Source of the DNA: Thalassospira profundimaris
GTDB taxonomy: Bacteria; Pseudomonadota; Alphaproteobacteria; Rhodospirillales; Thalassospiraceae
Direction of reading: 5' to 3'
NCBI RefSeq assembly: GCF_003326675.1
Contig: NZ_JPWF01000003.1
Coordinates: 1 to 64,000 of the forward strand
Length of the DNA stretch: 64,000 bases
The notes below the pieces were generated by a model. It was not told the origin of the DNA. It made no database searches and saw only the letters and a program-made list of their open reading frames with translations. This document shows, one piece after another, positions 42,926 to 53,346 of this stretch. The position numbers were made by a program, and so were the translations under genes. The first letter of the stretch is position 1, and the number at the start of each line of letters is the position of its first letter.

Positions 42926-43341
42926 GGAGTTTAAACCCTTTGCCTGTCAAATTTTTATCCAAGGAGCATGGACTCCTGATTTGTTGACAGGAACATTATC
43001 GACGGGTTGATACCCCGAACAGGTGGGCATTGCTTGCGCTATGTGTAAGAAAACTTACAGGGTCGGGTTTTTGCCATTTAACTCAGTTGGGTAGTTGCCA
43101 CAAAGCCTGCTTGTAACCGGTGAACATGCGGATCGCAGCAATCGGGTTTAAGATTTTCGATCTGCGGACAAATACGGAAGCACGATGAAAAAACATCGCA
43201 ATGCGATTGTTTCGTGACTAGTATCGGGTCAACGCAACGGGGCAAGTGACCTTGGTTGCGAAAGAAAACAGAAAAACAAAACCAATTTCGGGAGGCGCGG
43301 ACAACAGGCACAAAAGCCGTTGATCCGTGGAAAATAACGCA
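42926..43341. promoter_or_regulatory. Divergent intergenic region with palindrome TGTAAG-AAAA-CTTACA
   Basis: This 416-bp region holds the promoters of the nitrilase-TRAP operon and of the sensory operon. A perfect 16-bp palindrome, TGTAAG-AAAA-CTTACA (43044-43059), lies about 120 bp upstream of the nitrilase gene and is a candidate operator. A second short repeat, ATCGCA-A-TGCGAT, lies at 43195-43207, nearer the sensory operon. No gene was seen. Confidence 0.55.
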
Positions 43342-44679
43342 ATGCGTTTGTGGCCAGCGATTTCGTTTCGCGCTGTGCTCCGACTGATTGCCGGTATTGC
43401 GATATTCGCGACATACGGCAAAGCGGGCGCGTGCGAACTGAGCATTCTGACGTCCTATCCGTCGTCATTCTACAAACCGTTTATCGACCTTTTTGTTCAG
43501 CAAACGGGTGCAGAAGACGTTTGTGTTCAGAATAAAAACACCATCGGCCTGATTTCCCATGTGCGTGAAAATCGTCGTCCGGTTCCTGATATCGTTTGGG
43601 CCAGTTCGCCGGTTGCGTTCGAACTTCTGGATCAACAAGATGCCTTGGCGAAGTTCCCGGACAAGGTATCAAAACCGATTGGCGATGGTGGTATTCAGCC
43701 AGATGCGCCTGACGGATCGCGATTTGGGTTTGCGTTGTCGACAATCGGCGTGATGTCCGGGGCTGATCAGCCATTTGGAAATGGGCCGATTGAAATCGCC
43801 GATCTTGCGTCGCCGGATTATTACGGCCTGCTGGGTATGAGTTCGCCATCACGCAGCGGCACCACCCATCTTTTTGTCGAAAGCCTGTTGCAACAATATG
43901 GCTGGCAAGATGGGTGGGCCTTGTTGTCGCAAATTGGCGGGAACCTTGCGACCGTCACTGCACGCAGTTTCGGTGTGCGCGACGGTGTTGCACGCAATCG
44001 GTTCCCATACGGGATCGGGATCGATTTTCTGGCCCAGTCTGAACCGCAAACCGGTGATGCCCTGTTGTTTCAATCTTTTTCACCCGGCTGGTATTTCCCG
44101 GCCAGTGTGGCTGTGACCGGATTGGGGGCGCAAAATGCGCGGTCTCTGGAGTTCGTTGATTTCCTGCGTGGCGATGCCGCCCAGCAGTTGCTGTTGCAAC
44201 CGGAAATCCGGCGTATTCCGATTGATCCGAAATTGTGGCCGCAGGCGGGGTTCTTACCGTCTGCAAACAATCCGGCACAGGGGCTTGATCTGAAACTGGC
44301 AGCACGTCGGATGGCGGTGGTCAACGCGCTTTATGATGACATGATCACGCACCGGCTGCTTGAACTTCGAAAACTTTGGCAATCATTACGCCGGTTGGAA
44401 GCGACACCTGTGATTACCCAGTCCGACGCGACCAAGCCGCTGCTGAGTGCGGTACGTGATGCACTTGAATCCGTTCCGGTTGCTGCCTTTATGGCAAATG
44501 AACACAGCTTTGAACGGGTGTTTTCCGATGTTATACCGTCTGAAAACACGGTTGTTGGCAGACTACGGGTGCAAGACAGCTGGTCAAACGATTTCAGTCA
44601 GCGTTTCAAATCGGCCCGCGAGTTGATCGCGCGCATGGACTCGTTTCAAAGTCACCTTGATACGGGTGCCGTGAAATGA
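43342..44679 (+). CDS. PgtC-like periplasmic sensory binding protein
   Basis: About 445 residues with a signal peptide (start ATG 43342; a GTG at 43327 is possible) and a mature part beginning CELSILTSYPSSFYKPF. The AfuA/PgtC-type segment SSPSRSGTTHLFVESLLQQ and the following ARSFGVRDGVAR closely parallel the same region of the binding protein at 48245. It overlaps a histidine kinase gene by 4 bp, which is followed by a sigma54-activator response regulator; this is the gene order and size pattern of Salmonella pgtC-pgtB-pgtA. It probably binds the ligand and signals to the kinase rather than delivering it for transport. Confidence 0.82.
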   Translation: MRLWPAISFRAVLRLIAGIAIFATYGKAGACELSILTSYPSSFYKPFIDLFVQQTGAEDVCVQNKNTIGLISHVRENRRPVPDIVWASSPVAFELLDQQDALAKFPDKVSKPIGDGGIQPDAPDGSRFGFALSTIGVMSGADQPFGNGPIEIADLASPDYYGLLGMSSPSRSGTTHLFVESLLQQYGWQDGWALLSQIGGNLATVTARSFGVRDGVARNRFPYGIGIDFLAQSEPQTGDALLFQSFSPGWYFPASVAVTGLGAQNARSLEFVDFLRGDAAQQLLLQPEIRRIPIDPKLWPQAGFLPSANNPAQGLDLKLAARRMAVVNALYDDMITHRLLELRKLWQSLRRLEATPVITQSDATKPLLSAVRDALESVPVAAFMANEHSFERVFSDVIPSENTVVGRLRVQDSWSNDFSQRFKSARELIARMDSFQSHLDTGAVK

Positions 44680-46685
44680 AGTGGCGCCCAAACAGCCTTA
44701 AATCCAAGCTGACCTTGTCGATTTTTGTCATCGCCAGTGTTTCCGTGATGGCAACGGTGATTTCAAACCTGACCCTTGGCGGGGTCAGTCAGACGGTTGC
44801 CGATCTGGCATCGGAAAACCTTTCTGTGACGGCGACAAGTGCGCGTTTTGCCGAAATCGGTCAGGAAATCAGGGTTGATACACCGCGCTTGGGAAGTGCA
44901 ACGACCCAGTATGGCCGACAAGAAGCCCTGAACAGTCTGGAAGGCCATTTCAGGGATCTGAAACAGCTGAGTGACGAGCTTGCGATCTATGCGCCGGAAC
45001 TTACTGAAAAGCTGACCGGTTTGCTTGATGCCTTGATGGGAAATGTCGAAAAGCTGGATGCCAATGTCGCGGGCAAGTTCACCATGCGCGATGATCTCGG
45101 CCGACAGGTAGCAAGGATCAATCGCCTGCATAGTGACTTTTTGCTCGAAGTGGATCCGTTGCTGATTGATGCCAATTTCAACGTGACATCGGCAATTGAT
45201 CGAAGTTTCGCGACACCGGGACAGGAAATTCAGGCTGATCCCGTCATCAACGAAGTCCGGTTTACCGAGGCGCTGGGGCGTTTGCACGCGGCCTGTAACC
45301 TGATTGTGGGTTTAATGTTGCGTGCGGTTGGCGAAGATGATTTCGGGGCGATTGAACAACTTCGCCTGCGCCTGTTGGAAAGCATTTCGGAGGCCAATGA
45401 AAACCTGCCGGCGCTGCAGCAAAACAGCAGTTCCATCACCCTGCTTCAAATCTGGCGCGAAATTGCATCCTATGGCGATAGTCCGCGTGATTTGCTTGAA
45501 CTGAAGCTGCGTGAAACGGCCCTTCGTCGCCAAAATGCCCAGCTTCAAAATGAAAGTGCCATCTTGCTTGAGGCATTGGGCGGGCTTGTTGCCGATACTG
45601 TGCGCGAAAGTGGTCAGCGCACCGAGGGTGTATCCCTTCAGATCAAACAGGAAGTGCAAAACGGGCAATTGTTCGGGGTGTTGGCCGGTCTTGCCACTGT
45701 GGTGTTGTTGGTCCTGTTTTCGGTGTTCTTCATTCGCGGACAGTTGTTGCAGCGATTGATGCGCGTTTTGTCTTCGATGCAGATTATCGCCGATGGCAAC
45801 TTTGCACATCGGGTTCTGGTCGATGGGAGGGACGAGATCGGGCAGCTTGCCGATGCTGTGCGATTGTTCCGCCACAAGTCCCAGGAACTCGAAAGCCATG
45901 CCGAGGTTCTTCAGGAAACCAACAGCGAGTTGCGCCATGAGATTGCCCTGCGTCATCAGGCCGAACAGGATTTGCGTGAAACCCAGGCCGAACTTTTGCA
46001 GGCGGCCAAGCTTGCCGCATTGGGGCAGCTATCCGCAAGCATTGCCCACGAGTTTAACCAGCCATTGGCCGCACTTAGTTCCTATAACCACAATGCCGAA
46101 CTGTATCTTGAGCGCGGTGAAATCGAGAAATGCCGCGAGAAACTTGAAGATATCGACAGGCTGGTGAAACGTCTTTCCAAGACATCGAACCATCTGAAAA
46201 GCTTTGCCCGTCGACCGCAAGAAGCTGTAACACGCCATAGCGCAACCGAGGTTCTGGAACACGCACTGTCGCTGTTCGAAGACCGCGTGATGCGGGGCAA
46301 TGTCACGCTTGTTCGTGATTATCCCGAGGGTCCGGTTCATGTCCTGACCGACCCGGCCAAGCTTGAACAGGTTTTGGTCAATCTGATCAGTAATGCGATT
46401 GATGCGGTCGAACATCAGGATGACCCGACCTTGCATCTGGTGATTAGTGAAACCGACCGTCGGGCAATCATTTCAGTCGTTGATAATGGCACCGGATTTG
46501 CACCGGAAGTCAGCGATAAACTATTCGAACCCTTCTTTACAACCAAGCCGCCGGGCAAGGGACTGGGGCTTGGATTGTCGATTTCATTCAATATCATTCG
46601 TGACCTTGGCGGCCGTTTGCAGGTCTTGCCGGGCACCGGTGATCAGGGTGGAACGACCGCAACTGTGGAGCTGTTTAAAACGTGA
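44676..46685 (+). CDS. PgtB-like membrane sensor histidine kinase
   Basis: A 669-residue kinase. It has TM1 at about residues 13-34, a long periplasmic domain (about 35-325), TM2 at about 335-358 and a HAMP/coiled-coil linker. The HisKA domain has the phosphorylated His458 in ASIAHEFNQPLAAL, and an HATPase domain follows with VDNGTGFAPEV and KGLGLGLSI. The length matches PgtB. The large periplasmic part can contact the binding protein encoded just upstream (ATGA overlap). It is expected to phosphorylate the response regulator encoded next. Confidence 0.9.
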   Translation: MKWRPNSLKSKLTLSIFVIASVSVMATVISNLTLGGVSQTVADLASENLSVTATSARFAEIGQEIRVDTPRLGSATTQYGRQEALNSLEGHFRDLKQLSDELAIYAPELTEKLTGLLDALMGNVEKLDANVAGKFTMRDDLGRQVARINRLHSDFLLEVDPLLIDANFNVTSAIDRSFATPGQEIQADPVINEVRFTEALGRLHAACNLIVGLMLRAVGEDDFGAIEQLRLRLLESISEANENLPALQQNSSSITLLQIWREIASYGDSPRDLLELKLRETALRRQNAQLQNESAILLEALGGLVADTVRESGQRTEGVSLQIKQEVQNGQLFGVLAGLATVVLLVLFSVFFIRGQLLQRLMRVLSSMQIIADGNFAHRVLVDGRDEIGQLADAVRLFRHKSQELESHAEVLQETNSELRHEIALRHQAEQDLRETQAELLQAAKLAALGQLSASIAHEFNQPLAALSSYNHNAELYLERGEIEKCREKLEDIDRLVKRLSKTSNHLKSFARRPQEAVTRHSATEVLEHALSLFEDRVMRGNVTLVRDYPEGPVHVLTDPAKLEQVLVNLISNAIDAVEHQDDPTLHLVISETDRRAIISVVDNGTGFAPEVSDKLFEPFFTTKPPGKGLGLGLSISFNIIRDLGGRLQVLPGTGDQGGTTATVELFKT

Positions 46686-48040
46686 CCGATAACAGTGTAA
46701 AACCACCAGTCCTGTTGATTGATGATGAAGCCGAAATTCGTCGTGCCTGGGAAGAAACTCTGCATCTGAATGATTTCGAACCACACCCGTTCGAAGACGG
46801 GGCTGCGGCCGTTGCGACCCTTGATGCCACCTGGCCCGGCGTGGTTTTGACCGATTTGCGGATGCCGGGATTGGACGGGTTTGGTGTCCTTGACGCAGTC
46901 AAGCGCATTGATCCGAAAATCCCTGTCATTATCGTGACCGGACATGGTGATATTCCGATGGCAACCAAGGCAGTCAAAGCCGGGGCCTATGATTTCATCG
47001 AAAAACCTGCCGACCCGGACACATTACTTGCCGTGATGGTGCGCGCGGCTGAATTGCGTCGGCTGGTTTTGGAAAACCGGCGACTAAGCAATAGCAGTTC
47101 GGAAGGCTATAAAATCGAAAATCACATTATGGGTAACCATCCCAAAATCGAACGGTTACGGGCACAAATCGCCGTCGTTGCCGGGGCGGATGTCAATACG
47201 GTGATCTATGGTGAAACCGGGACGGGCAAGGAACTGGTTGCGCGTGCCTTGCATGAATTGGGACCGCGCAAGGACGGGCCGTTTATTGCCATCAACTGTG
47301 GTGCACTGAACGAAAACCTGATTGCCAGCGAACTGTTCGGTCATGAAACAGGGGCCTTTACCGGTGCGGATCGTCGCCGTATCGGCAAGCTTGAGCAGGC
47401 CAGTGGAGGGACGCTTTTCCTTGATGAAATCGAAAGCATGCCGCTTGGCCAGCAAACCCAGCTTTTGCGTGCCTTGCAGGGGCAGGTGATCGAACGGCTT
47501 GGCGGTAAATCCCAGATCAATATTGATGTGCGCGTGGTGGCGGCGGCCAAGGAAGATCTTGAACTTGCGTCCGAGGAAATGCGTTTCCGGGCCGATCTTT
47601 ATTATCGGTTGGCGGTTGCGTCCCTGACCATTCCGTCCTTGCGTGAACGCGGGGAGGATATCGCGCTTCTTTTCGTGCATTACGTGACCAAGGCCTGTCG
47701 CAAGCATGGTTTGACCATCCCGGAAATCAGCGAAATTAATCTTGATGATCTGCGTGGAAAGTCATGGCCGGGCAATGTGCGTGAACTGGTTAATGCGGCT
47801 GAACGTTATGCGTTGCAGCTTGAAAATGCCGGGATGGCATCTGATCCGCGCGATACCGGAATTATGTCATTGCCTGATCAGATTGATGCCTTTGAGAAAA
47901 AGGTCATTGTATCTGCCCTGCGCCGCTGTGGCGGGCGCGTTCAGGAAACCGCCGATTATTTGTCGATCCCGCGCAAGAAACTTTATCTGCGGATGCAGCA
48001 CCACAATATCGACAAACGTGCCTTTGCTGGCACTGAATAA
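46682..48040 (+). CDS. PgtA-like NtrC-family response regulator (sigma54 activator)
   Basis: A 452-residue regulator. An N-terminal receiver domain has phospho-acceptor Asp58 (VVLTDLRMPGLDGF). A central AAA+ domain has Walker A GETGTGKE (residues 177-184) and the sigma54-contacting loop GAFTGA (224-229). The C-terminal Fis-type HTH is GGRVQETADYLSIPRKKLYLRM. It starts with GTG overlapping the kinase stop (GTGA). GAFTGA predicts activation of sigma54 promoters; a -24/-12 element lies 135 bp downstream of its stop, before the ABC transporter genes. Confidence 0.93.
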   Translation: MTDNSVKPPVLLIDDEAEIRRAWEETLHLNDFEPHPFEDGAAAVATLDATWPGVVLTDLRMPGLDGFGVLDAVKRIDPKIPVIIVTGHGDIPMATKAVKAGAYDFIEKPADPDTLLAVMVRAAELRRLVLENRRLSNSSSEGYKIENHIMGNHPKIERLRAQIAVVAGADVNTVIYGETGTGKELVARALHELGPRKDGPFIAINCGALNENLIASELFGHETGAFTGADRRRIGKLEQASGGTLFLDEIESMPLGQQTQLLRALQGQVIERLGGKSQINIDVRVVAAAKEDLELASEEMRFRADLYYRLAVASLTIPSLRERGEDIALLFVHYVTKACRKHGLTIPEISEINLDDLRGKSWPGNVRELVNAAERYALQLENAGMASDPRDTGIMSLPDQIDAFEKKVIVSALRRCGGRVQETADYLSIPRKKLYLRMQHHNIDKRAFAGTE

Positions 48041-48075
48041 CGGGTCGTTAGTGACACGTGGTTTTTGATGGATGT

Positions 48076-48098
48076 GTCAATTTTGACCCAATTTGGGT
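48076..48098. promoter_or_regulatory. Candidate activator-binding palindromes upstream of the sigma54 promoter
   Basis: Two overlapping palindromes, GTCAA-TT-TTGAC (48076-48087) and ACCCAA-T-TTGGGT (48086-48098), lie about 77-100 bp upstream of the -24/-12 element, the usual range for an NtrC-type enhancer site. They are the most likely binding region of the adjacent regulator, but this is position-based inference. Confidence 0.5.
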
Positions 48099-48174
48099 TC
48101 GAGTAAGTCTGAGAAGGGATGAAATTATCTTTGTTTTACAACTGGTTGTGTTGAATTTAGCGGGATGAGTTTTC

Positions 48175-48190
48175 TGGCATAGCCGTTGCT
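48175..48190 (+). promoter_or_regulatory. Sigma54 (-24/-12) promoter of the ABC transporter operon
   Basis: TGGCAT-AGCCG-TTGCT has GG at 48176-48177 and GC at 48188-48189, exactly the GG-N10-GC spacing of sigma54 promoters, and matches TGGCAc-N5-TTGCw at all but one core position. The predicted start would be near 48201, giving a 44-nt leader to the GTG start of the binding-protein gene. Confidence 0.85.
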
Positions 48191-48244
48191 CTTGTTTGGT
48201 TGCCGACAGTGTCGGTCAATGAACAACCAAATAGGGAGGAACCA

Positions 48245-49600
48245 GTGTCCAACATGGTTCACAAGACTCTTCGCCACCTGGGGACAGGTGTTGCGATTGC
48301 CGCAATGCTTGCGACTGCGACGGCCCATGCCGCCGATGACAAGCTTGTCATTGTAACGTCGTTTCCATCTGATCTGACCGACGTTTTCAAAAATGCCTTC
48401 ATGAAGGAAAACCCGTCGATTTCCGTCGAGGTCGTCAATAAAAGCACCTCGTCTGGCGTGAAGTACCTGATTGAAACGGCACAGAACAACCAGTCCGACA
48501 TCTTCTGGGCATCGGCACCCGATGCGTTTGAAGTGCTGAAAGAAAACAGCCTTCTTGCGAAATATGAATCCGCCGTCGGCGGTGTTGCCACTGAATTGAA
48601 CGGTTATCCGATCAACGATCCGGATGGGTATTATTCCGGTTTTGCGCTGTCGGGTTATGGCTTCATGTGGAACGAACGTTACATGGATGCCTTCAAACTT
48701 CCCGAGCCGACCGAATGGGAAGATCTGACAAAGCCGGTCTATAATGGCCATGTCGGTATTTCTGCACCGTCGCGTTCCGGCACCACGCATCTGACCATTG
48801 AAACCATCCTTCAGGGTGAAGGCTGGGAAAAAGGTTGGCAGACCATCCGTGATATGTCGGGCAACGCCAAAACCATTACCGAGCGCAGCTTTGGTGTTCC
48901 GGACGGGGTCAACAGCGGTTCATTTGGTATCGGTATTGTTATCGACTTCTTCGGCTTCTCGTCGATGGCATCGGGCTTCCCGGTTGATTTCCGTTATCCG
49001 AGCGTCACCGCACTTGTTCCGGCCAATATCGGTGTGATCAACAATGCACCCAACAATGGACCGGCACAGAAATTCATCGACTTCCTGATGTCTGAAACCG
49101 GTCAGGGCCTGTTGTTCGATCCGAAAATCATGCGTCTTCCGGTCAATAAAAGCGTTTATGCAAATGCACCGAAGGGCCTGCCGAACCCGTTTGACGGTTC
49201 GATCAAATCCGAAGTCAACTTTGACACCGCGGTTTCCCAAGGTCGTTATAACGTTGTGAACTCGTTGTTCGATGTGATGATTACCTATCGTCTGGAAGAT
49301 CTGCGTGCAGCAGTTGTTGCCATCCAGGAAGCCGAAGTCGCACTGGCTGAAAGCGGTGCCACCAATGCCGAAGCAACCAAGCTGATTGCGGATGCCAAGG
49401 CACTTCTTCACACCTTGCCGATTGACGAAGCAAAGGCAAACGATCCTGAATTTGCCGCGATCTTCAAATCCAAACGCAAAAAGCAGACCGACAAGGTAGA
49501 AGGCCGTCAGGCCGAGATCGAACAGGAATGGGATAACCAGATCGTTCAGAACTACCAGAAAGCAGCCGAGCTCGCGAATACGGCCCGCTTCATGTTCTAA
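48245..49600 (+). CDS. AfuA/PgtC-type ABC transporter periplasmic binding protein
   Basis: About 451 residues with signal peptide ending at ATATAHA before ADDKLVIVTSF. It shares APSRSGTTHLTIETILQGEGW and TERSFGVPDGV with the sensory protein at 43342, so the two are paralogues. A C-terminal helical extension of about 80 charged residues is longer than in ordinary iron-binding FbpA/AfuA proteins. The start is taken as GTG at 48245 (GGGAGGA 4 bases upstream); ATG at 48254 is an alternative. Related AfuA proteins bind sugar phosphates, and PgtC is tied to phosphoglycerates; both suggest a phosphorylated ligand. Ferric iron remains an alternative. Confidence 0.88.
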   Translation: MSNMVHKTLRHLGTGVAIAAMLATATAHAADDKLVIVTSFPSDLTDVFKNAFMKENPSISVEVVNKSTSSGVKYLIETAQNNQSDIFWASAPDAFEVLKENSLLAKYESAVGGVATELNGYPINDPDGYYSGFALSGYGFMWNERYMDAFKLPEPTEWEDLTKPVYNGHVGISAPSRSGTTHLTIETILQGEGWEKGWQTIRDMSGNAKTITERSFGVPDGVNSGSFGIGIVIDFFGFSSMASGFPVDFRYPSVTALVPANIGVINNAPNNGPAQKFIDFLMSETGQGLLFDPKIMRLPVNKSVYANAPKGLPNPFDGSIKSEVNFDTAVSQGRYNVVNSLFDVMITYRLEDLRAAVVAIQEAEVALAESGATNAEATKLIADAKALLHTLPIDEAKANDPEFAAIFKSKRKKQTDKVEGRQAEIEQEWDNQIVQNYQKAAELANTARFMF

Positions 49601-49679
49601 GTCGTACTGACCTCCCTGGTATCATGTAGATCGACCACGCAGCCGCTGGGGGTATGCGCGGGGACTGCATGATGCTCAC

Positions 49680-49722
49680 CCTCCCTGCCAGAGAATTTCA
49701 TCACATTGACCTCTCTGGCAGG
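49680..49722. other. Stem-loop between binding-protein and permease genes
   Basis: A 13-bp perfect stem (49680-49692 with 49710-49722; CCCCTGCCAGAGA and its complement) with a 17-nt loop lies in the 152-bp gap after the binding-protein gene. It lacks a T-tract and fits partial attenuation or mRNA stabilisation. Confidence 0.75.
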
Positions 49723-49752
49723 GGCCTAATTTCCCGACATTGGAGAATACTC

Positions 49753-51483
49753 ATGTCCTCCGCCGCTATTGCGCGACCGGTGCGTTTTTCTTCGCTTGGT
49801 CCATACATGGTCGCTGGGATTGTGGTCCTGTTCCTTGGGGCATTCCTTCTGGTGCCGGTCCTGAAAGTTATTCAGGTGGCGTTCCAGGACCCGTCCAGTG
49901 GTTCGTTCACGATGGTGAACTTCCAGGACTTCTTTAACAGTTCGCTTTTCCGCCAGTCCTTCTTCAACTCGGTCTATGTGTCGGGCATGTCTGTCGTGTT
50001 TGCGTCGGCATTTGCGCTGCCACTGGCCTATTTCACGACCCGTTTTAACTTCTCGGGTTCGGTTATTATCCAAACGCTTGCCTTTGTGCCGCTGATCATG
50101 CCGCCCTTTATCGGTGCGGTGGCCATGCAGTTGCTGTTTGGATCGAATGGCAGCGTAAACCTTTTGATGCGCGACTGGTTCGGGTTCGACATTCCCTTCA
50201 TGGAAGGTTTGAATGGCGTCATCTTCGTTCAGTCCATTCACTATTTCCCGTTCATCCTGATCAATCTCAGTGCCAGCCTTCAGAACATTGACCGTTCGAT
50301 GGAAGAAGCAGGCCAGATGTTGGGTTCAAGCGGGTTCCGTCTGTTCCGCCGTATTGTCTTTCCGCTGGCCATGCCGGGCTATATCGCCGGTGCGTCGCTT
50401 GTTTTCGTCAAAGTCTTTGATGATCTTGGAACGCCGCTTTTGCTGAACGTCAACACCATGTTGGCCCCGCAGGCTTATCTGCGTATTTCGTCGATCGGTA
50501 TTTCTGATCCGATGGGATATGTGATTTCCTGTATCCTGATTGTCTTCTCGGTCTTTGCGATGTGGGTGGCTTTCCTTGGGATGCGCGGCAAGGATTATTC
50601 GACGACGCAAAAGGGCGGCGGCGGCCTTTCGAAGCGCGATCTGCGTTCGCATGAAGCCATTCTTTGCTATGTCGTCATCTTCTCGATCCTGGGGATCGTT
50701 CTGGCGCCGCATTTGGGCTTGTTGTTGCTTTCCTTTGGGTCTGTCTGGTCCTTTAGTGTCCTGCCTGACAGCTTCACCACCAGCCATTATGGCACGGCAT
50801 TTACGTCTGCCTGGACCTTTATCAAGAACACGCTGATCTATGCCGGTCTTGCCGGGGTTATTGATATCGTCCTTGGCACCGCCATCGCCTATGTGGTGAT
50901 GCGTACCAATGTGATTGGCCGCAAGTGGCTTGATTACCTTGCCGTGTCGGCCCTTGCAGTTCCGGGCGTTGTGCTTGGTATCGGTTATCTGCGTGTGTTC
51001 TATGGTGTGAATATGCCCTTCACCGACCAGCCGATGGCAACCTGGTGGGGGATTATTGTGATCGCCCTTGCTGTGCGTCGTTTGCCCTATGCACTTCGTT
51101 CCTGCACGGCTGCCTTGCAGCAGGTTTCCCCGTCGCTTGAAGAAGCATCGGAAAACCTTGGTGCTTCGAAGTTCCGTACGGTTCGACGCATTGTTGTGCC
51201 GCTGATGGCAAGTGGCCTTGTGGCCGGCTTTGTTACCAGCTTCTCGACCGCCGCTGTCGAGTTGTCAGCAACCATCATGCTTGTTTCGACTGAAAATGAC
51301 GCACCGCTTGCCTATGGACTTTACCTGTTCATGCAATCCGCGGCCGGACGTGGTCCGGGGGCGGCACTGGGTGTCATGGCTGTAATCATCGTTGGTCTGG
51401 CGACCTATCTGTCACACCGCATGGTTGACCGTGCGCGTCAGCAACGCAGCAGCATGGAACAAGCGACAGGGGACGTCGCATGA
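49753..51483 (+). CDS. ABC transporter fused permease (AfuB/FbpB type)
   Basis: A 576-residue membrane protein containing two tandem permease domains, each with about six helices and its own EAA loop (MEEAGQMLGSSGFRLFRRIVFP near residue 180 and LEEASENLGASKFRTVRRIVVP near 465). This fused form is typical of the FbpB/AfuB group. The start at 49753 has TTGGAGAA upstream; a longer reading crosses the stem-loop. It overlaps the ATPase gene by 4 bp. Confidence 0.93.
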   Translation: MSSAAIARPVRFSSLGPYMVAGIVVLFLGAFLLVPVLKVIQVAFQDPSSGSFTMVNFQDFFNSSLFRQSFFNSVYVSGMSVVFASAFALPLAYFTTRFNFSGSVIIQTLAFVPLIMPPFIGAVAMQLLFGSNGSVNLLMRDWFGFDIPFMEGLNGVIFVQSIHYFPFILINLSASLQNIDRSMEEAGQMLGSSGFRLFRRIVFPLAMPGYIAGASLVFVKVFDDLGTPLLLNVNTMLAPQAYLRISSIGISDPMGYVISCILIVFSVFAMWVAFLGMRGKDYSTTQKGGGGLSKRDLRSHEAILCYVVIFSILGIVLAPHLGLLLLSFGSVWSFSVLPDSFTTSHYGTAFTSAWTFIKNTLIYAGLAGVIDIVLGTAIAYVVMRTNVIGRKWLDYLAVSALAVPGVVLGIGYLRVFYGVNMPFTDQPMATWWGIIVIALAVRRLPYALRSCTAALQQVSPSLEEASENLGASKFRTVRRIVVPLMASGLVAGFVTSFSTAAVELSATIMLVSTENDAPLAYGLYLFMQSAAGRGPGAALGVMAVIIVGLATYLSHRMVDRARQQRSSMEQATGDVA

Positions 51484-52604
51484 CTGTAACAAGCAATCCT
51501 TCCAATAATCGTCGCGCGGAGGCCGACACCATGACCACGATGCAAACCTCACCGGTTCAGATCGACATCGAAAATCTTTCCCTGTCATTCGGCAATACCG
51601 AAGTTCTCAAAGGGGTCAATCTGGCCATTCGTCCGGGCGAATTCTTTGCCTTTCTTGGCCCGTCCGGTTCGGGTAAATCGACGCTTCTTCGTGCCATCGC
51701 CGGATTTGGTCCGACCCCGAAAGGTCAGATCAAGCTTGATGGACAGGACATTGTCGGGTCTGTGCCCTGGCAGCGTAATGTTGGCATGGTGTTCCAAAGC
51801 TATGCACTTTGGCCGCATATGACGGTTGCCAAAAACGTTGCCTTTGGCCTTGAAGAGCGCAAAGTTCCGGCATCCGAGATCGGGCCGAAAGTCCGTGCCG
51901 CACTGGAACTGGTTGGCATGGGGGACTATGCCGAACGTTTCCCGTCGCAGCTTTCAGGCGGACAGCAGCAACGTGTTGCACTTGCACGTACCATCGTTGT
52001 GGAGCCGCGTGTTCTTCTTCTTGATGAGCCGCTTTCAAACCTTGATGCCAATCTGCGTGTGCAGATGCGCCAGGATTTGCTCAAACTGCAACGTCGTCTT
52101 GGCATCACGACCATCTTCGTGACCCATGATCAGGAAGAGGCCAATACCATCTGTGACCGGATTGCGGTGATGGCAGACGGTGTGGTTCAGCAGATCGGTC
52201 GCCCGGATGAAGTATATGACAATCCGGCCAACAGCTTTGTCGCCAAGTTCCTTGGAACGGCCAACATCCTGCAGGGTGTTGTGGCGCAGGCTGATGGCGG
52301 GATGCATTTCGAATGCGGTGATAGTCTTCGTATTCCGGTTGCAGCCGACGAAAAGCCGGGCAAGGCACAGCTTGTTGTGCGCCCGGAAAGTATCGAACTG
52401 GAAGCTGCTGCGACGAGTGGCGGGCTTGCAGGTAAGGTTGATTCTGCGGAATTCCTTGGCGGTATGGTGCGCTATGCGGTGGATGTCAGTGGTCAGCAAT
52501 TGCTGGTCGATGAACGTCATACCCGTGGCAAAAAGCGCATGGACAAGGGCGAGATCGTCTCGCTGAAACTTGATCCCGAACAGGCTGTCCTGATCCGCGA
52601 TTAA
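51480..52604 (+). CDS. ABC transporter ATPase (AfuC/FbpC/PotA type)
   Basis: A 374-residue ATP-binding protein. It has Walker A GPSGSGKST, signature LSGGQQQRVALART, Walker B VLLLDEPLSNLD, and a C-terminal TOBE-type domain from about residue 260. The ATG overlaps the permease stop (ATGA); an internal ATG 17 codons later is possible. It completes a three-gene importer behind the sigma54 promoter and is followed by a strong terminator. Confidence 0.93.
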   Translation: MTVTSNPSNNRRAEADTMTTMQTSPVQIDIENLSLSFGNTEVLKGVNLAIRPGEFFAFLGPSGSGKSTLLRAIAGFGPTPKGQIKLDGQDIVGSVPWQRNVGMVFQSYALWPHMTVAKNVAFGLEERKVPASEIGPKVRAALELVGMGDYAERFPSQLSGGQQQRVALARTIVVEPRVLLLDEPLSNLDANLRVQMRQDLLKLQRRLGITTIFVTHDQEEANTICDRIAVMADGVVQQIGRPDEVYDNPANSFVAKFLGTANILQGVVAQADGGMHFECGDSLRIPVAADEKPGKAQLVVRPESIELEAAATSGGLAGKVDSAEFLGGMVRYAVDVSGQQLLVDERHTRGKKRMDKGEIVSLKLDPEQAVLIRD

Positions 52605-52614
52605 TCCATCTTGG

Positions 52615-52655
52615 TTGCACCGGGTGGCATTTGCTGTCCGGTGCAATTTCTTTTT
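52615..52655 (+). terminator. Intrinsic terminator after the ABC ATPase gene
   Basis: TTGCACCGG (52615-52623) pairs with CCGGTGCAA (52638-52646), followed by TTTCTTTTTC. A good rho-independent terminator located only 20 bases before the histidine phosphatase gene, so that gene is either read by leak-through or has its own promoter. Confidence 0.85.
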
Positions 52656-52674
52656 CAAGATTAAAGGTCTGACC

Positions 52675-53346
52675 ATGCCTGCCAACAGTTTGCCGACCAT
52701 TTTGCTGATCCGTCATGCTGAAACCCAATGGAACATCGAAGGGCGCCTGCAAGGATGGCGCGATGCGCCCTTGACGCTGAACGGTTTCAGGCAGGCAATC
52801 GCGGTTGCCGAGAATGTTCGTAAAACCTGGGCCGGCTTGGCACTTGATGGTGGCGTTCAATATCATTGCAGCGATCTTGGTCGCGCGCGTCAGACATCTT
52901 CAATCCTTGCGGATTGCTGGGGGATTCGGTTCGGTCAATTCATGGCCGAAGAACAGATCAAGGAACGGAATTACGGTGCCTGGGAAGGCATGACCCTTGA
53001 TGAAGTCGCTCAAAGCCGTCCGAACGAGTTTCAGGATCATCAGGCCGATCCGTGGGGGTATCAGGTGCCCGGTGGTGAAGCAAAGACCGCGCTTTTTGAC
53101 CGTATCTCGGCTTGGCTTGACGAATTGCCGCGCAACCGCACCCATGTCGTAGTGACTCATAGCGGGTGTTTTCGGGCTATTCGCGGGGCTTATGTAAATT
53201 CAACGCGCGCGGAGATTGATGCATATCGCGAACCGCAAACGACGTCCTTCCTTCTGCGCGAAGGCATCGCACGTGAAATTGCGATGTCACCGGTTCTGGC
53301 CGAGCAGTTTCAGCTCAGTAAAAAGGCACTGACCGTCGCGATATGA
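52675..53346 (+). CDS. Histidine phosphatase (phosphoglycerate mutase-like family)
   Basis: A 223-residue protein of the histidine phosphatase superfamily, with the phosphorylated His14 in LIRHAETQWNIEGRLQGWRD, the family glutamate region KERNYGAWEGM, and the second histidine in VVVTHSGCFRAI. It may be a phosphatase or a cofactor-dependent mutase of small phosphorylated metabolites. Its position after the PgtCBA/AfuABC-like genes suggests it dephosphorylates the imported compound, although a terminator separates it from the ATPase gene. The start at 52675 is chosen for the standard N-terminus. Confidence 0.87.
   Translation: MPANSLPTILLIRHAETQWNIEGRLQGWRDAPLTLNGFRQAIAVAENVRKTWAGLALDGGVQYHCSDLGRARQTSSILADCWGIRFGQFMAEEQIKERNYGAWEGMTLDEVAQSRPNEFQDHQADPWGYQVPGGEAKTALFDRISAWLDELPRNRTHVVVTHSGCFRAIRGAYVNSTRAEIDAYREPQTTSFLLREGIAREIAMSPVLAEQFQLSKKALTVAI

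Follow-up and report, generated by a model that had tools for sequence, protein, structure and literature searches.

A predicted sigma54 promoter with a tandem operator between a PgtCBA-like sensory system and an ABC importer operon in Thalassospira profundimaris

The window that we analyzed is a 64,000-nucleotide (nt) stretch of the Thalassospira profundimaris genome. Within it, three overlapping open reading frames (ORFs) on the forward strand (43327-48040) encode a solute-binding protein (SBP), a membrane sensor kinase, and a response regulator. The sensor SBP (43327-44679), which has SBP_bac_11/SBP_bac_6 domain matches and a PgtC-like position, is a paralogue of the transporter SBP encoded downstream (about 35% identity). 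It had no match by sequence among solved structures, and its AlphaFold2 model has a pLDDT of 80.9. The kinase (44676-46685) has HAMP, HisKA, and HATPase domain matches and is 29% identical to Escherichia coli PgtB over 560 columns; its best NCBIfam match is PgtB. The regulator (46682-48040) has the parts of an NtrC-type activator, namely, a receiver, a sigma54-interaction AAA+ domain with the GAFTGA motif, and a Fis-type helix-turn-helix (HTH), and is 30% identical to E. coli PgtA. Neither protein reached the NCBIfam equivalog cutoffs for membership in PgtCBA: the kinase scored 241 bits as PgtB (cutoff, 1000), and the regulator scored 314 bits as PgtA (cutoff, 650) and 377 bits as NtrC (cutoff, 559).

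The idea that the sensor SBP is a recent copy of the neighboring SBP was not supported. In the SBP tree, the sensors group apart from the transporter SBPs with support of 84/71, although long branches were flagged and the sensor of G328, a genome from another genus, is placed among the PgtC-like rows. The gap upstream of the sensor gene contains no listed sigma54 match that retains both GG and GC at ≤2 mismatches. At window positions 43215-43224, where the window has TGACTAGTAT, four relatives have TGAATAGTAT in common; this is perhaps a -10 element.

Downstream of the regulator gene, on the same strand, lies a transporter operon (48245-53346). Its first gene encodes the transporter SBP (48245-49600; domain and structure-relative matches; AlphaFold2 pLDDT, 88.6) and starts with GTG at 48245, preceded by AGGGAGGA. 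It is followed by genes for a fused two-domain ABC permease (49654-51483, with a true start possibly near 49753), an ABC ATPase with TOBE_2 (51480-52604), and, last, a member of histidine phosphatase superfamily branch 1 (52615-53346), all identified as ORFs with domain matches. All four further Thalassospira loci (about 60% identity) and G328 (30%) have a relative of this phosphatase at the equivalent position. Compared with Thalassospira genome G018, the region 51525-53343 stands out: the ATPase is 90% and the phosphatase 61% identical, versus 98 to 99.8% elsewhere in the locus, a pattern that would fit replacement of the 3′ part of the operon by recombination.

The -24/-12 consensus for sigma54 is TGGCAY-N5-TTGCW. 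The sequence-only reading had placed such a promoter between the sigma54 activator and the ABC operon, and the letters of the window bear this out. Positions 48175-48190 of the forward strand (TGGCATAGCCGTTGCT, TGGCAT-N5-TTGCT) lie inside the 204-bp gap between regulator and operon and agree with the consensus at 11 of 11 defined positions; GG at 48176-48177 is followed by 10 bases and then by GC at 48188-48189, which is the GG-N10-GC spacing. The same reading gave a distance of 135 bp from the stop codon of the GAFTGA-containing regulator to 48175, which is correct for the ORF 46682-48040, and a 44-nt leader, which holds as a prediction: about 12 nt past the GC, +1 is predicted at 48201, giving a leader of 48201-48244 before the GTG. 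At the predicted 5′ end is a hairpin, CCGAC-AGU-GUCGG (48195-48231), whose stem is kept in the five Thalassospira while its loop varies. We do not propose a role for this hairpin as a riboregulator (z, -1.57; 17 of 200 shuffles fold equally well). The DNA around the predicted +1 also contains TTTGGTTG...CAACCAAA.

Is the promoter match a chance one? Exact matches to the consensus number 13 in the 4.88-Mb genome versus 12 for a reversed control, so the genome-wide count was set aside as proof, and because there is no excess, we judged the promoter by its conservation and its company. (Within the window, matches at ≤2 mismatches number 111 versus 82.8 expected. A second exact match, TGGCACCGGATTTGCA at 46487-46502, lies within the kinase gene and is probably due to chance.) Among 29 genomes of the genus, the sensor gene is found in 5 (E ≤1e-20). 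Across these five copies, the -12 element is invariant in 5 of 5 columns and the -24 element in 5 of 6, the sixth being T or C; the leader is invariant in 40 of 44.

Wider searches covered 385 genomes of the class and 398 of the phylum and gave three more full systems, each in another genus (G328, G584, and G487). The phylum search by kinase alone, in which at most 4 candidates per genome were scored, found G584 and missed G487; the search by SBP alignment found both. No further system was found among 43 genomes of the order of G328. All eight full systems, that is, the five from Thalassospira and the three from other genera, have the sensor-kinase-regulator/ABC layout, a regulator with GAFTGA, and a 10-11/11 site before the gene for the transporter SBP (8/8, in 4 genera). 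In contrast, such a site was present in 0 of 13 transporter-only loci, defined as loci in which the fetched stretch contains the transporter and neither a kinase nor a regulator match; the best score there was 9, reached twice. Counted by lineage, the comparison is 4/4 versus 0/13, or 1 in 2380. It leaves out G319, G385, and G402, which the searches had also found, and L079-L083, the last five having no ABC permease or ATPase match beside the SBP or not having been closely examined; L079 has a kinase-like match near its SBP.

These results make it very improbable that 48175-48190 is a chance match and that the operon depends on a sigma70 promoter or on read-through from the sensor operon. The genomic count of 13 versus 12 would suit that explanation, as would the single strand shared by the sensor operon, regulator, and transporter and the lack of any terminator found between them. 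Yet chance would hardly account for a 10-11/11 site in 5/5 Thalassospira and 3/3 distant full systems and in 0/13 transporter-only loci, nor for an operator motif at a suitable distance upstream, and the region 48030-48300 gave no sigma70-like site in a simple scan. A sigma54 promoter may be accompanied by read-through from the sensor operon. The genome has rpoN (Sigma54_DBD, 232 bits). Thus, it is by its place and conservation, and not by the consensus alone, that the predicted promoter goes beyond chance.

Upstream of the promoter, the palindrome TGNGTCA-N4-TGACNCA occurs twice on the forward strand, at an interval of 32 bp. Putative upstream activator site 1 (CGGGTCGTTAGTGACACG, 48041-48058, or -160 to -143) begins directly after the regulator stop codon, differs from the motif at 3 of 12 positions, and is invariant in 10 of 18 columns in the five Thalassospira. 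Putative site 2 (TGTGTCAATTTTGACCCA, 48073-48090, or -128 to -111) is exact and invariant in 12 of 18 columns. The stretch from site 2 to the promoter has drifted, with only 8 of 84 columns invariant. Sigma54 enhancers sit about 70 to 150 bp upstream of the promoter (PMC3844500); site 2 is within this range, and site 1 is at its far edge. We do not claim an IHF site between operator and promoter, the best candidate in the window having 2 mismatches.

When the operator pair was compared with shuffled sequence, 12 of 150 shuffles of the window matched equally well; the numbers were 0 for G003 and G487, 2 for G018 and G027, 11 for G014, 17 for G584, and 99 for G328. Because this single-sequence test is weak alone, genome-wide and genus-wide tests were used. 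The T. profundimaris genome has two exact operators, both 102 to 136 bp before exact sigma54 sites. The second (C9:46824-46841) is on another contig; it is paired with a further copy at 32 bp, and a different member of the set of 13 exact sigma54 sites follows 136 bp downstream. Allowing ≤1 mismatch gives no enrichment of the motif (6 places versus 7 for the reversed control), and none of the four one-mismatch places has a downstream sigma54 site above 7/11. The 29 Thalassospira genomes together contain 11 exact operators versus 1 for the reversed control, the motif having been derived partly from the same loci in which it is counted. Among the exact operators in genomes bearing the system, 5/5 have an 11/11 sigma54 site 101 to 136 bp downstream, and 5/5 have a partner at 32 bp (2 to 3 mismatches); for the six in Thalassospira genomes without the system, the best partner has at least 6 mismatches. 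Of these six, the one in G004 is followed at 140 bp by a 10/11 site, which is absent from its counterpart in G005. G003, which has the system, has no exact operator but two one-mismatch copies 32 bp apart.

Outside the genus, a single operator copy, two mismatches from the motif, is present in G328. The putative operators of G584 and G487 are pairs of the form TGTTACC-N4-TGACCCA, 34 bp apart and with ≤2 mismatches to that form, and have just one half-site in common with the Thalassospira operator. The presumed recognition helix reads PRKKLYLRM in the regulators of Thalassospira and G328 and SRKTLYLKM in those of G584 and G487, a difference that fits a change of regulator and operator together but does not prove it. 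In G328, a further 10/11 sigma54 site (L110:5137-5152) precedes the sensor gene, with an operator-like site of two mismatches downstream of it (L110:5287-5304); these sites possibly reflect autoregulation. Operator-like pairs 34 bp apart with 1 to 2 mismatches also occur outside the regulator gap at L093:4545/4579, L094:4002/4036, L095:5615/5649, and L096:13126/13160, and the neighbors of the L093 pair include genes for GDPD and a phosphonate-type binding protein.

The promoter could be real and yet serve another NtrC-family activator (e.g., NtrC, under nitrogen limitation), with the sensory genes as bystanders. Enhancer sites of related sigma54 activators can resemble one another, and the regulator scores higher as NtrC (377 bits) than as PgtA (314 bits), below the cutoff in each case. 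We consider this explanation very improbable given that, in the 29 Thalassospira genomes, the 32-bp partner accompanies 5/5 exact operators where the system is present and 0/6 where it is absent, that no 10-11/11 promoter was found at the 13 loci where sensor genes were not found, and that the palindrome recurs at E. coli pgtP, near the PgtA gene. The proposal that the site ties the sensory genes to transporter expression is supported by the comparison, given the presence of rpoN, the 8/8 versus 0/13 loci, the tandem operator, and GAFTGA.

The second exact operator and its exact sigma54 site precede a gene for a PAP2, PhoC-like protein (C9:45855-46643; Pfam, 56.6 bits; PhoC model, 81 bits with a cutoff of 430). 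By our own reading of the sequence, its N terminus is signal-like, and the protein is probably secreted. Within the 29 genomes of the genus, the gene was found only in this one (E ≤1e-20). In 20 other genomes, 4 of them in the genus, there was a copy 74% identical in G328 and one 29% identical in G753, and none at E ≤1e-15 in the remaining 18. The G328 copy is directly upstream of the G328 sensor gene and has an 11/11 sigma54 site plus a weak, 3-mismatch operator. The operator-promoter pairs here and in G328 thus make the phosphatase a predicted regulon member in these two genomes but not throughout, and most likely the regulator also turns on this PAP2 acid phosphatase in T. profundimaris.

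What is transported? The transporter SBP is closest by both sequence and fold to glucose-6-phosphate (G6P)- and pyridoxal-phosphate-binding proteins. Its three best sequence matches among solved structures are VcA0625, P5PA, and AfuA (names partly from the fold listing), and its three best Foldseek folds are sugar-phosphate binders, the nearest being the G6P-binding VcA0625 and AfuA. The hexose-phosphate ABC importers AfuABC and VcA0625 (PMC4546632) are thus its nearest solved relatives. The SBP loop SRSGTTH aligns with QSSGTAY of AfuA, but the sugar-binding His205-Asp206 of AfuA, with numbers matched to letters by our own assignment, is replaced by Ile-Asp. I233 and D234 are invariant in 21 SBPs. 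Also unlike AfuABC, the system here has a single fused permease, attached sensor genes, and about 130 further C-terminal SBP residues. These extra residues, predicted to be mostly helices, are present in both SBPs (49230-49597 and 44300-44676), beyond the 320-residue AfuA fold.

Ferric-ion-binding proteins have this SBP fold too, so iron might be what is sensed and imported. The close folds found by Foldseek include FutA, FbpA, and HitA; iron-binding proteins come nearest for the sensor model, with a G6P binder fourth; and the iron transport protein 2pt1 ranks fourth among the sequence matches of the transporter SBP. We think iron unlikely, since the three best matches of the transporter SBP, in sequence and in fold, are those given above, and since the operon phosphatase, the PAP2 cotarget, and the kinship with PgtCBA also count against it. 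From that kinship, the phosphatases, and the fold, the ligand is probably a small phosphate ester; our best guess is that it is perhaps a C3 compound, as for PgtC.

PgtC, PgtB, and PgtA, with PgtP, serve 3-phosphoglycerate sensing and uptake in Salmonella and E. coli (PMC11077982). As in PgtCBA, genes for an SBP-like sensor (so assigned by position), a membrane kinase, and a receiver-AAA-HTH regulator are found together here. The two differ in that the predicted target here is an ABC importer and the Pgt target is the MFS carrier PgtP, and in that the regulator here has GAFTGA and the target a sigma54 site, whereas E. coli PgtA, in the one record used, has no GAFTGA. The palindrome is nevertheless common to both: in that E. 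coli record, pgtP has an exact copy, TGTGTCACAATTGACACA (L099:1150-1167), 91 bp before the annotated start, and the 442 bp before pgtP contain no GG-N10-GC site above 5/11. We infer that PgtA binds this copy, but VrpA is reported to bind the Salmonella pgtP promoter (PMC7873081), so the palindrome there could belong to another regulator.

In L080 and L081, the triad adjoins an MFS-like carrier, so named from its sequence, and the regulators have no GAFTGA. L081 has one exact and one one-mismatch palindrome, L080 has two one-mismatch copies, and no GG-N10-GC core was found in L080 8656-8890 or L081 8558-8790. (A blastn search of E. coli genomes with the L080 MFS gene gave no match.) The palindrome at pgtP, L080, and L081, with neither sigma54 site nor GAFTGA, suggests one operator and two sigma classes. 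Outside the class but within the phylum, L093-L098 have related kinase-regulator pairs, with GSFTSA in five and GSFTGA in one, and a 10-11/11 sigma54 site follows the regulator in 6/6; L095 has an 8/11 site in the corresponding position and its 10/11 site beyond it. For Salmonella PgtA, use of sigma54 has been suggested on the basis of a model (PMC11077982); E. coli PgtA may work without sigma54. Tentatively, and with somewhat less than even confidence, we propose that the TGNGTCA-N4-TGACNCA family is read by regulators that switched sigma class (GAFTGA and sigma54 at ABC importers, neither at pgtP), that the sensor SBPs of this branch form an old lineage of their own, related to PgtC, which has been joined to no fewer than two transporter clades, and that the regulon can include a PAP2 phosphatase.

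Our main reading, to which we assign a probability of about 0.88, is that a PgtCBA-like three-component sensor induces the ABC importer via sigma54, with 48175-48190 as the promoter of operon 48245-53346. Sequence comparison provides its elements: the promoter, operator motif, gene order, GAFTGA, rpoN, and second operator-promoter pair. The sensor-kinase contact, phosphotransfer, DNA binding, sigma54 dependence, and ligand are conjectural and would fit together as follows. A periplasmic SBP turned dedicated sensor (43327-44679) would signal ligand to the PgtB-like kinase, which would phosphorylate the NtrC-type regulator. The regulator would bind the palindromes at -160/-143 and -128/-111, whose 32-bp separation is about three helical turns, loop to sigma54 polymerase waiting at -24/-12, and open the promoter by means of its GAFTGA loop. 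The compound then imported would be the one sensed or a similar one.

In HptA-HptS-HptR, the G6P-sensing system of Staphylococcus aureus, an SBP-type sensor likewise passes a sugar-phosphate signal to a kinase, as an SBP-type sensor would here; its target, UhpT, is not an ABC importer, and to our knowledge sigma54 is not involved. For both SBPs, the fold matches include 6lkg, a two-component signaling protein taken here as HptA. A link of a sigma54 activator and RpoN to an ABC importer operon, as proposed here, is described for AauR and the glutamate importer aatJQMP of Pseudomonas aeruginosa; the substrate there is an amino acid, and the part of the paper available mentions no SBP-type sensor (PMC7962211).

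It is an ordinary arrangement for a sigma54 promoter to separate a sigma54 activator from the genes that it controls. What sets this locus apart is the tandem operator, the probable phosphatase target, and, in comparison with PgtA, the apparent sigma switch. For PgtA-like regulators, no operator description was found in the part of the literature sampled, older subscription papers being outside the sample, and one is now proposed for this family. What began as a bare promoter match becomes a complete, testable circuit of sensor, kinase, activator, operator, promoter, and two predicted targets, and it points to the uptake of phosphorylated compounds by marine bacteria.
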